The notes under the pieces are model-generated. The model had not been told where the DNA came from and searched no databases. It saw only the letters and a list, made by a program, of their open reading frames with translations. Made by a program: the position numbers and the translations under genes. 34,802 nt of DNA from a virus: positions 1 through 34,802 of the IMG/VR virus record IMGVR_UViG_3300044612_001528, one strand, 5' to 3'. Shown here piece after piece: positions 4,374-34,193 of this stretch; the stretch's first letter is position 1, and every line of letters starts with the position of its first letter.

Positions 4374-4734
4374 ATTATTGACCGCACAGGAAGTGGCGGC
4401 GCGCTGGAAGTGCGCCCCCAGAATGGTTCACCGGCTCGTCGACGCTGGCCGACTGACGGCCATTCTGCTGGGCACCGGCGCCCGCAGCCGGCGGTTCGAC
4501 CCGGCGGAAATTGCGCGCTATATCAACGACGCAGGGAGAGAGGCATGCCAATCACGAAACGCGGCACAAAGTGGCGGCTTCGTATCCAAGCGCACGGACG
4601 CCGTGTTAGCGGAACTTTTAGCACCAAAGCGCTCGCCCTCGAAGCGGAGCGAAAAATCCTTGAGGACATCGAGCGCGAACGCGCGGGGCTCCGGCCAAAT
4701 CGTACGCTTGCCGACGCCCTTGCGGAGTACCTGA
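4366..4734 (+). CDS. Excisionase/AlpA-like HTH protein
   Basis: The first 55 residues are a MerR-type winged HTH of the excisionase or DNA-binding-domain class: LTAQEVAARWKCAPRMVHRLVDAGRLTAI, then RRFDPAEIARYI. Proteins of this kind direct integrase to excise or act as regulators. Start ATG 4366 has a GGAGGG site. The frame stays open to 4734, giving 122 residues, of which the last 63 lie over the integrase start in another frame. Only the HTH part looks conserved, so the tail may be unselected. Position directly before integrase supports the Xis role. Confidence 0.65.
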   Translation: MTELLTAQEVAARWKCAPRMVHRLVDAGRLTAILLGTGARSRRFDPAEIARYINDAGREACQSRNAAQSGGFVSKRTDAVLAELLAPKRSPSKRSEKSLRTSSANARGSGQIVRLPTPLRST

Positions 4735-5495
4735 CGACCGAAGCCAAGGGGCTTAAGGCCCAGTCGAGCCTGCTGAGTAAGGCCAGGCTCATTCGCGACC
4801 ACCTGAACCGTCCGATCGACCGCATTGCCGACGCGGCCGCCGACATTATTCGGGCCGGCGAAGGCCTCACGCCTGCCACCATAAACCGCCGGCTGGCGCT
4901 GCTTCGCCGCTTGGGCAACCTCTGCCACCAGTGGGGCTGGTCGGACAGCAAGCTGGGCTCAAGGGTTCGACTGCTGCGCGAACAGCAGGAGCGGCACGTC
5001 TACCTAAGCCTTGAGGACGTCGCGCAGCTGGTCGAGGCGTTGCAAACGGAAGGCGCAAAGGACGCGGTGTGGCTGGCCGCCTGTACCGGCCTGCGCAAGT
5101 CCGAGCTGTTCGCTTTGACGAAGAAGAACTGGCGCGACGGCGCCCTGTGGCTGCCGACCTCGAAGTCGGGCCGGCCACGGCTGGTCCCGGTTCCCGAGGA
5201 CGCGGCCCACATTTGCGAGCGGCTCCCGCTGCGGACGAACGAACACCTTCTACGCCACGACTTCGTGCGCGCCCGCGAGCTCTGCGGCATGCCTCACATT
5301 CGTTTTCACGACCTCCGACACACCTACGCCAGCTGGGCGGTGGCCGCCGGCGTCGACATTCGCGTGCTCAAGGAGCTCATGGGCCACTCGACTATGCAAA
5401 TGACCAGTCGCTACGCGCACCTGCAAGACTCTGCCCTGGTCGCGGCCACCCAGAATATGGTGGCCCACAGGTGGCCCAAGAAAAAAGAGGGTTAA
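4545..5495 (+). CDS. int: Tyrosine recombinase (phage integrase)
   Basis: 316 residues from ATG 4545, set by the purine-rich GGGAGAGAGG site; earlier in-frame ATG 4410 lies inside the HTH gene. An N-terminal arm-binding region (TKWRLRIQAHGRRVSGTF) precedes a SAM-like core-binding domain and the catalytic domain. Catalytic residues are visible: Arg184 (CTGLRKSEL), Lys207 (TSKSGRPR), His255 and Arg258 (FHDLRHTYASW), His281 (LMGHS) and Tyr290 (TSRYAHL). It integrates the phage at the adjacent attP, in a tRNA-Leu gene. The last codons overlap one pair of arm-type sites. Confidence 0.96.
   Translation: MPITKRGTKWRLRIQAHGRRVSGTFSTKALALEAERKILEDIERERAGLRPNRTLADALAEYLTTEAKGLKAQSSLLSKARLIRDHLNRPIDRIADAAADIIRAGEGLTPATINRRLALLRRLGNLCHQWGWSDSKLGSRVRLLREQQERHVYLSLEDVAQLVEALQTEGAKDAVWLAACTGLRKSELFALTKKNWRDGALWLPTSKSGRPRLVPVPEDAAHICERLPLRTNEHLLRHDFVRARELCGMPHIRFHDLRHTYASWAVAAGVDIRVLKELMGHSTMQMTSRYAHLQDSALVAATQNMVAHRWPKKKEG
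5461..5483 (+). promoter_or_regulatory. Arm-type integrase site pair, int side
   Basis: TGGCCCA, four bases, then TGGCCCAAGAAA: two direct repeats with 11-bp offset, lying in the last codons of int. The same arrangement recurs at 5663-5685 on the other side of the tRNA segment. Matching pairs flanking a core are typical of integrase arm sites. Binding is inferred. Confidence 0.6.
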
Positions 5496-32658: not shown

Positions 32659-32824
32659 CGCACAGCTCCCGTTTTTTCGCCATGGCTGCCGCCGCGCTCG
32701 CGAACCCACCGTGGGCCGACCGGCCGTGTTTCGTTTTTCGCCAGAGCAAGTAAATAAACCTGCCAGTCCAGCGCTCGCCGTCTTGATACTCGAACCTCTC
32801 GATTTCCCACGGCCCAGCGGTCAT
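32648..32824 (-). CDS. Small hypothetical protein
   Basis: 58 residues from ATG 32824 in ATGA overlap with the P-like gene; the longer frame to 33019 is rejected. It has WEIERFEYQDGERWTGRFIYLLWRK, a likely beta meander, and an Ala-rich end. Function unknown. Confidence 0.6.
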   Translation of the reverse strand: MTAGPWEIERFEYQDGERWTGRFIYLLWRKTKHGRSAHGGFASAAAAMAKKRELCGEG

Positions 32825-33234
32825 GAGCCATGGCTTTGTCCTCTCCCAACCATCAGAAACAGTTTCTGCAGTTCGCGGCGCGCTGTTTCCTGCGAGCTCT
32901 TCGGCGCCGGCAGCTGTGGCAGCGCGCGGTACATGCCCTCGTTTTCGCGCTTGCGGGGTTTGGCCATTGCCATGAACTCGGGAAGGCTCGGGGGCCATGC
33001 GTGTCCGTTCGCCAAGCATCCGCGTATCCCTTCGCGCAGCTCGTCAGCCGACAAGCCGGAAATTGCCTTCGACCACAACGCCGTCGGCTTGTCGCCCTGC
33101 TGGCTTGTCCACTTGTGGCCATACATCTCCGCCATCCGGGTCCAGAACGCCAATACCGTTCTCCCACTCTCGACAGGCGGCCTTGACTCGGTCGACGGCC
33201 GATAGGCGGCCACTGCTTCTGCTGCTGTCTTCAC
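32821..33234 (-). CDS. Lambda P-like replication protein (helicase loader)
   Basis: 137 residues from GTG 33234 (GGAGG 4 nt upstream). FWTRMAEMYGHKWTSQQGD, LWSKAISGLSADELREGIRGCL and AWPPSLPEFMAMAKP are hallmarks of lambda P-type proteins that bring DnaB to the origin. The N-terminal 63 codons overlap the O-like gene in another frame (190 bp). The conserved part lies inside the overlap, so the gene is real. Confidence 0.85.
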   Translation of the reverse strand: MKTAAEAVAAYRPSTESRPPVESGRTVLAFWTRMAEMYGHKWTSQQGDKPTALWSKAISGLSADELREGIRGCLANGHAWPPSLPEFMAMAKPRKRENEGMYRALPQLPAPKSSQETARRELQKLFLMVGRGQSHGS

Positions 33235-33823
33235 TCGCCCTCCTCACCCAGTTTCGCCATGTGGCCGGCCAGCTGGCCTTCCGGCCCTTTTGCCCAGGGG
33301 CCGCCAGCCAGTAGTCCCGGAACTTTTCAAACTCGCGTGCCCTTCGAGGGCCAAGCACCTGCCCTGCCCATTCCCAGTCGTCTCGGGGAGGCTCCCACTG
33401 AGCGGGTAAGCGCGAAGCGCGCACCTCTCCCTCTTTGGTTCCTTGATGGTTCAATGACGGATCGGGTGCAGATTCTGCGGGGCTGCCCCGCAGATTCTGC
33501 GGGGGTGGGGTGCAGATTCTGCGGGGCTGGGGCGCAGATTCTGCGGGGGTCTCCACCGCCTCAATCGCGGCCTGTTCGACCTGAATTCGGTACACCGTCG
33601 ACCGCCCGCGACCGTCCTGGCGAGTCACCGCGCCGGCCTGTTCCAAGGCTTTCAAGTGGCCTTGCACCGCGCGCTCGCTGAACCCGGTGCGTTCGCAAAG
33701 CGTGGCCACCGCCGGCCAGCACAGGCCGTCGTCGTTCGCGAAATCGGCAAGCGCCATGAGTACGAACTTCGGGCCGGGCGGCAGCTGCAGGGACCAGCAG
33801 GCAGAGGAGATGGAAACGCTCAT
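33044..33823 (-). CDS. Lambda O-like replication initiator
   Basis: 259 residues; ATG 33823 with GAGG just upstream. Residues 10-82 form a winged HTH of the HTH_36 class (PGPKFVLMALADFANDDGLCWP, ERTGFSERAVQGHLKALEQAGAV). The central 25-30 residues are encoded by the iterons. FEKFRDYWLAAPGQKGRKASWPATWRNWVRRA follows, a known replication-protein end; the last 60 residues lie over the P-like gene. It should bind the iterons and recruit the P-like protein. Confidence 0.88.
   Translation of the reverse strand: MSVSISSACWSLQLPPGPKFVLMALADFANDDGLCWPAVATLCERTGFSERAVQGHLKALEQAGAVTRQDGRGRSTVYRIQVEQAAIEAVETPAESAPQPRRICTPPPQNLRGSPAESAPDPSLNHQGTKEGEVRASRLPAQWEPPRDDWEWAGQVLGPRRAREFEKFRDYWLAAPGQKGRKASWPATWRNWVRRASEDSSRSSGRLSAVDRVKAACREWENGIGVLDPDGGDVWPQVDKPAGRQADGVVVEGNFRLVG
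33468..33555 (-). repeat. ori: Four 22-bp iterons: probable replication origin
   Basis: GCAGATTCTGCGGGG occurs exactly at 33468, 33490, 33512 and 33534, so the period is 22 bp with 15 identical bases per unit. The first 11 bases are an imperfect palindrome (GCAGA-T-TCTGC). Because 22 is not a multiple of 3, the units are read in three different frames (PAESAP, PRRIC, PQNLR), so the DNA and not the peptide is conserved. This copies the four iterons in lambda O. Confidence 0.85.
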
Positions 33824-33957: not shown

Positions 33958-34158
33958 TCATGCAAAAACGTCTGGCCGCAGGTCGGCGGCCTTCACGGCG
34001 CCGTCGGTGGCGCGCTCGATTTGCCGCGCGGTCTCCGCAGAGATCCGCGCCCGGCCGATCAGCCAGTTGCTGACCGACCCTTGAGTCGTCCCCACCAACT
34101 CGGCGAACGCCTGCTGCGTGAGGTTGTTGGTTTTCATGAAGGCGTGAAGTGTTTCCAT
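33958..34158 (-). CDS. Cro-like HTH repressor
   Basis: 66 residues from ATG 34158; a GTG at 34173 is less likely because the promoter extends to 34165. LTQQAFAELVGTTQGSVSNWLIGRARI is a clear HTH of the Cro/CI class. It is divergent from the CI-like gene and first in the right operon. There is no ribosome site, but the predicted transcript begins at the A of the ATG. Confidence 0.85.
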   Translation of the reverse strand: METLHAFMKTNNLTQQAFAELVGTTQGSVSNWLIGRARISAETARQIERATDGAVKAADLRPDVFA

Positions 34159-34164
34159 ATCGAA

Positions 34165-34193
34165 AATATGCACGCGTCATTGATTGTAGTCAA
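34165..34193 (-). promoter_or_regulatory. Putative promoter of the Cro-like gene
   Basis: Minus-strand -35 TTGACT (34188-34193), a 17-bp spacer, -10 CATATT (34165-34170). The predicted start is position 34158, the first base of the ATG. The -35 lies in the repeated operator, as in the left promoter. Confidence 0.55.

Follow-up and report, generated by a model that had tools for sequence, protein, structure and literature searches.

Palindromic iterons inside an O-like initiator gene as the probable replication origin of a phage

What function does a DNA sequence serve when it is repeated four times inside a gene and is read there in three reading frames? Iterons placed inside the gene for the initiator are the textbook logic of phage lambda. 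Most temperate phages known only from sequence have, to our knowledge, origins that are unmapped. In the virus record considered here (IMG/VR record IMGVR_UViG_3300044612_001528; "the window" is the whole stretch of DNA analysed, and its 34,802 bases are the entire record) an array of this kind sits in an O-like initiator gene. The comparisons described below argue, with a probability that we put at a little under nine in ten, that the segment is the phage's theta-replication origin, lambda-like and embedded in the initiator gene.

The O-like gene and its neighbours

The genes and signals around the array are the following.

33044..33823, minus strand: O-like replication initiator gene, 259 aa (Pfam HTH_36, PHROG, AlphaFold model)
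33671..33673, minus strand: codon of the recognition-helix Arg51 (SERAVQ), the most conserved residue in motif-bearing relatives
32821..33234, minus strand: P-like helicase-loader gene (PHROG 109 P-like helicase loader, E=1e-8)
33958..34173, minus strand: Cro/YdaS-like regulator, upstream of the O gene and in the same direction (Pfam/PHROG)
34165..34193, minus strand: weak sigma-70-like match (no evidence by itself), upstream of the Cro-like gene and pointing towards the putative origin

A Pfam scan of the O-like protein finds HTH_36 at the N-terminus (E=3e-13, 49.7 bits against a curated cut-off of 25), PHROG matches are to replication initiation protein and O-like families (PHROGs 1032 and 391), and a sequence search of the PDB returned only weak, generic matches to winged helix-turn-helix (wHTH) proteins. 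The protein is laid out as a winged HTH (residues 1-90), a linker encoded by the iterons (about 91-145) and a helical C-terminal part. In the AlphaFold model the wHTH has pLDDT values above 90, the repeat-encoded residues, about 91-145, are predicted to be disordered, and R51 stands at the start of the recognition helix (50-62).

Downstream of O and in the same direction lie genes for the P-like loader, for a NinB-like protein and for a resolvase like RusA. A repressor-like regulator is also found upstream of O, on the opposite strand, and the whole is a lambdoid-style early operon. The P-like gene overlaps the end of O out of frame by about 190 bp (33044-33234, minus strand), an overlap that is kept in six relatives with about 3 variable sites in the 190 bp, as is expected of a double-coded stretch. 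A tyrosine integrase gene at 4410-5495 (plus strand) suggests that the phage is temperate. Among named phages there was no near nucleotide match to a 9-kb stretch that contains the terminase, portal and replication genes.

The iteron array

33534..33544, unstranded: iteron 1 (first in gene sense), palindrome GCAGA-W-TCTGC, sequence match
33512..33522, unstranded: iteron 2, sequence match
33490..33500, unstranded: iteron 3, sequence match
33468..33478, unstranded: iteron 4, adjoining the second array, sequence match

The first-pass annotation, made from this DNA alone, had reported a 15-base sequence repeated perfectly four times at 22-bp spacing, with a shift of reading frame between repeats, and both observations hold. 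The 15-mer GCAGATTCTGCGGGG is present in four perfect copies that start at 33468, 33490, 33512 and 33534 (steps 22/22/22; 33468-33548); in the minus-strand gene 33823-33044 the copies are read in frames 0, 1, 2 and 0, and they encode AESAP, RICT, QNLR and AESAP, three different peptides. The palindrome in each unit, which had been described as imperfect, is in fact a perfect 5-1-5 palindrome formed by the inner 11 bases, GCAGA-W-TCTGC (GCAGA-T-TCTGC in the window). The interval that had been flagged, 33468-33555, does contain the iterons but stops short of the likely functional unit, missing a second array at 33433-33462. Throughout the 34.8-kb record exact GCAGAWTCTGC occurs only as the four array copies and a reversed control pattern has zero matches; Rfam has zero matches in the array region.

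Constraint on the DNA

The earlier claim that selection acts on the DNA is supported by recoding, by the invariance of the array in close relatives and by spacings set by helix geometry instead of codons (see below). With the encoded peptide kept unchanged and codons drawn according to the usage of the phage itself, four copies of any 11-mer arose in 0 of 200,000 synonymous recodings and three copies in 3 of 200,000; multiplying the probabilities of the four sites under the same peptide and codon usage gives 7e-9. The window was also aligned with six close relatives whose protein is 95-97% identical. The O gene has 71 differing alignment columns among these seven phages (indels and the stop codon counted), and variable sites number 0 of 77 in the array, spacers included, versus 67 of 667 elsewhere (about 10%; Fisher p=0.001), 3 of the 67 being stop-codon columns outside the fetched stretches. 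Synonymous sites within the array are also invariant, and the invariant run, of about 105 bp, extends into the second array. The array is a clear case of a DNA function that prevails, within a gene, over the constraint of coding for protein. The repeat-encoded peptide, being a linker that is predicted to be disordered, would tolerate reading in any frame.

The palindrome in distant phages

A scan of IMG/VR on DNA only, for two GCAGAWTCTGC cores with a gap of 0-30 bases, yielded 105 stretches, of which 86 were examined. The paired cores lie 3-65 aa after an O-like wHTH domain in 70 of the 86 loci; some of the remaining 16 look like initiator genes cut off at contig ends, fragments on which Pfam is silent. 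With relatives found by protein and in phage databases added, the set grew to 149 domain-bearing loci, which form 88 clusters at 80% identity. Two or more cores, each with at most one mismatch, are present in 62 of the 88 clusters, a conservation of iteron sequence that is partly by construction and inflated since most motif-positive relatives were collected by motif search (the 80%-identity clusters are also phylogenetically non-independent). The 62 motif-positive clusters contain 201 exact cores in 55 kb of O genes versus 1 in 521 kb of flanking DNA, and core copy number ranges from 2 to 9 across relatives. Exact cores occur in named phages such as Vibrio phage vB_VpM-pA2SJ1 and Aeromonas phages 4_4512 and vB_AsaM-56, one-mismatch cores are found in Pseudomonas phages TC7, MD8 and phi2, and core matches extend to Phycisphaerales (loci L111 and L129) and actinobacterial contigs (L119 and L137). 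The first-pass annotation had proposed comparing relatives at the DNA level for a peptide that is kept while the repeats are lost; what is kept is the DNA repeat, and it is the peptide that varies, along with copy number, spacing and frame.

Adjacent cores are spaced by 16-18, 21-24, 33-34, 36-39, 44-45 or 49-51 bp, with few spacings in between. A period of 5.55 bp fits the spacings best (R=0.58, n=160; cluster bootstrap 0.47-0.67; jitter-null maximum 0.32), against R=0.08 for the codon period; the sites therefore keep to half helical turns and do not follow codons. Half-turn spacing would fit symmetric dimers that sit on one face of the helix or the other. The same steps (17, 22, 23, 33-34 and 39) recur in genes that have other iterons, and these genes were not selected by motif, although their detection required one spacing of 15-25.

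Iterons and the recognition helix

Median pairwise identity of the wHTH among the 62 motif-positive clusters is 30%. The R51 column is Arg in 60 of the 62, which makes it the most conserved wHTH column, and it is the sole invariant column of a 25-member alignment. Several of the 26 clusters that lack the core have, in the corresponding position, a palindrome of another sequence: GACACAGTGTC, GCCACAGTGGC, GGAACAGTTCC (Burkholderia phage Bcep176) and GTCACGGTGAC. Codon-shuffled controls for these alternative palindromes were repeat-free in 114 of 130 trials.

Genes with other helices have other palindromes in the same 17/17/22/23/22 spacing layout. The clearest pair is locus L012, with helix SMGERTVQQH and GCAGA, and L267, with helix SMGERTVQRH and GCCAA; the L267 layout (13/30/47/69/92/114) is exactly that of the GCAGA genes L005 and L140. 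The pair looks like co-evolution of helix and site, a correlation that falls short of proof. Arg or Lys as the fourth residue after R51 accompanies non-GCAGA iterons in 5/17 cases versus 1/57 (p=0.002, a post hoc value that ignores relatedness). The conservation of the recognition-helix Arg, together with the different iterons in genes with different helices, lends indirect support to binding of the array by the encoded O-like protein.

A second array in an AT-richer tract

33455..33462, minus strand: box 1 of the second array, ATCCGTCA, 5 bp past iteron 4
33444..33451, minus strand: box 2, AACCATCA
33433..33440, minus strand: box 3, AACCAAAG, degenerate, deduced from the step of 11 bp
33429..33473, minus strand: AT-richer tract, candidate unwinding element, with an A-rich coding strand

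Directly downstream of the iterons in gene sense, the window has three boxes (ATCCGTCA/AACCATCA/AACCAAAG) at 11-bp steps from 33462 to 33433. The tract around them is modest, its 30-bp windows being 50-53% AT versus 35% AT in the O gene. Across the family, the coding strand is A-rich over the 60 bp that follow the last iteron, and this stretch exceeds the gene mean by about 10 points of AT in 81-84% of clusters; upstream of the iterons the same clusters have no AT excess. Boxes of the form AACCRTCA at 11-12-bp steps are found in 25 of 61 clusters versus 0 of 61 for a control region, and they occur in all three frames; autocorrelation after the iterons gives a weak 11-12-bp signal, and a box-specific test was needed. 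The first box usually starts 5-6 bp past the last palindrome. Larger gaps, of 28-29 and 51 bp, could be explained by further degenerate palindromes lying between the two.

A DNA-only scan for three AACCRTCA-like boxes gave 117 readable loci. Of these, 75 are in O-like genes, 102-295 bp after the wHTH and in sense orientation without exception (75/75), and 72 of the 75 have other iterons, or none recognised; the 42 loci without a wHTH include many simple-sequence repeats and some truncated or divergent initiators. Since the box array stands beside other iterons, it is independent of any one iteron sequence, and its presence beside different iterons suggests that its reader is common to these phages. 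The array is a natural candidate for the strand that would be captured on opening.

An origin and its alternatives

To what is observed here (the repeats, selection on the DNA, the association with a wHTH gene, the half-turn geometry, and the second array with its position) we would add, by inference, dimer binding, wrapping, unwinding of the box array and helicase loading. In lambda, O dimers on phased sites form a nucleoprotein complex that opens the AT-rich tract, which offers an analogy of mechanism (PMC7466680, PMC5043065). The O-like protein would use its N-terminal winged HTH to bind the four 11-bp palindromes, probably with one dimer on each, and Arg51, where the recognition helix begins, would make a key base contact; the first-pass annotation's reading of the segment, as very likely the origin and the binding site of the winged-HTH initiator that the same DNA encodes, is supported in this way. 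Four dimers two helical turns apart would wrap the DNA into an O-some that, by analogy with lambda, would put strain on the AT-richer array of boxes directly downstream, at 11-bp steps, and open it. The initiator itself, or a partner, would then hold the exposed strand, and the host DnaB helicase would be brought in by the P-like loader together with the C-terminal part of O. Two features of the window count against the origin reading: the AT-rich tract is modest (50-53% AT) and the box array is degenerate. The same conservation, position and geometry could belong to a binding array that serves some purpose besides origin firing, an unusual thing to find in an initiator gene.

If the array were an operator for autoregulation, O bound within its own gene would block O/P transcription and set dosage, and the origin would be elsewhere. 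Palindromes of this kind are bound by dimeric wHTH proteins, and a bound array would impede RNA polymerase arriving from upstream; exact copies are nonetheless found neither near promoters nor elsewhere in the loci (1 in 521 kb), and the sites always come after the wHTH coding region and before an AT-richer repeat array, the layout of lambda ori (PMC7466680). We give it a small probability. Still smaller is the chance that the repeats are kept for their peptide, as a proline-rich, repetitive linker whose spread is due to slippage or duplication. The encoded segment is indeed modelled as a disordered linker, and tandem DNA duplication, the simplest growth route for such arrays, is the likely way in which iteron copies arise; as the main cause of the repeats, however, the peptide is refuted by the frame and spacing data, for the same DNA yields three different peptides and the spacing period is 5.55 bp, not 3 bp, and the recoding test (0/200,000) and the invariant synonymous sites of close relatives also stand against it.

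The array might instead bind a host protein, or serve packaging, recombination or partition, and merely be located in the O gene. The same 11-mer is found in phages of very different hosts, as would be the case for the site of a conserved factor, but the site varies with the recognition helix (SMGERTVQQH/GCAGA versus SMGERTVQRH/GCCAA, in the same layout) and sites are not scattered through genomes; we hold such a role to be highly improbable.

If the segment is an origin, it may further belong to a large unnamed class built of two interchangeable modules, the pair of wHTH and palindromic iteron and the shared 11-12-bp AACCRTCA array. Under this proposal, which is tentative and to which we give somewhat less than an even chance, specificity would shift by recognition-helix substitutions while the half-turn layout stays fixed, and the array would be a single-strand capture site for a common factor. 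Palindrome, layout and box array are readable from DNA alone and would locate candidate origins in many phages, and they would predict which phages have replication specificity in common or compete for it. The natural series of paired protein and DNA changes would bear on how an initiator recognition helix picks its site.

Relation to known origins

Lambda ori has repeated inverted-repeat iterons in the O gene, followed by an AT-rich region (PMC7466680), and gene P comes next. The window has the corresponding features, namely in-gene sites after the DNA-binding domain, an adjacent (modest) AT-rich region and a P-type loader downstream, so that the lambda logic with a different sequence that had been claimed for it is what the comparison finds. 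Lambda iterons are 18-19-bp imperfect inverted repeats with arms of the CCCTC/GAGGG type, whereas those of the window are 11-bp perfect palindromes; the AT-rich tract of lambda contains no AACCRTCA boxes; the window protein matches HTH_36 and has no lambda-O Pfam match; and spacings of 1.5, 2, 3 and 3.5 turns are used across the window's phage family. The locus would thus work like lambda ori while standing outside the lambda family by iteron sequence, box array and Pfam domain.

Origins of RepA_N plasmids (pSK41, pTZ2162) combine a wHTH N-domain with semi-palindromic in-gene "Rep boxes" that encode a linker (PMC5703833, PMC7145576), the ori-encoded central domain of pSK41 Rep being that linker (PMC5703833). 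The wHTH N-domain and linker-encoding iterons in the rep gene are shared with the window, and the Pfam family is different; membership of the window protein in RepA_N was rejected, there being no PF06970 match in the Pfam scan. The fold of its wHTH is compatible with the RepA_N N-domains 4pql and 4pt7, at a score tied with many wHTHs. A RepA_N gene of Trichococcus ilyis (L125:2262-2421) has five GCAGAWTCTGC-like cores, extended to TAGCAGAATCTGCTA, within the rep gene. No such array was found in five other RepA_N plasmid genes and the pUSA03 gene, so the Trichococcus case may be convergence; pUSA03 was also considered as an HTH_36 hybrid and rejected, as its first rep gene is RepA_N-like and without the motif. 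In a Staphylococcus epidermidis RepA_N gene (L240:1273-1330) three ACTTCCNGAAGT palindromes at 23-bp spacing lie mid-gene, the expected place of Rep boxes.

Chimeric Rep proteins of the pPR9 type join an HTH_36 "phage replication" N-domain to a C-domain of RepA_N type, and the pPR9 HTH_36 N-domain with its adjacent DNA is a working replicon compatible with pSK41 (PMC5703833). The HTH_36 N-domain is common to pPR9 and the window, although pPR9 is a plasmid of a Gram-positive host; by analogy it may be taken as the nearest experimental support for a self-contained specificity module. Iteron plasmids of the Rep_3 type have repeats of about 22 bp, helical phasing and adjacent AT-rich repeats (PMC5703833, PMC5043065), all of which are shared with the window, but their iterons bind monomers and are usually outside the rep gene (e.g. 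upstream in pSK639), and their initiator family is unrelated to the window protein by Pfam scan.

In the open-access literature, judged by title and abstract, neither the 11-mer nor its complement appears in a phage-origin context. The literature found on in-gene phage iterons, likewise open-access and with older phage papers thinly covered, concerns lambda, Stx-phage and plasmid work and not this array. The widespread 11-bp palindromic iteron, the half-turn rule, the helix/iteron variants and the shared AACCRTCA array are thus undescribed in the searchable literature.

Other palindrome pairs

Several paired-core matches in genome contigs were set aside as unrelated inverted repeats or other repeat genes. 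In L131:2988-3060, L116:1878-1950 and L124:5094-5166 the palindrome pairs have other settings, one being a long inverted repeat and the other two each lying within one of two similar genes, and they are probably unrelated hairpins. Seven contigs of the uncultured Clostridiales MAG RUG680 (L117, L122, L126, L133, L135, L145 and L146) have a GCAGAATCTGC/GCAGATTCTGC pair near the contig end; the pairs are near-identical in the two contigs read, and perhaps represent a dispersed repeat at which assembly breaks.
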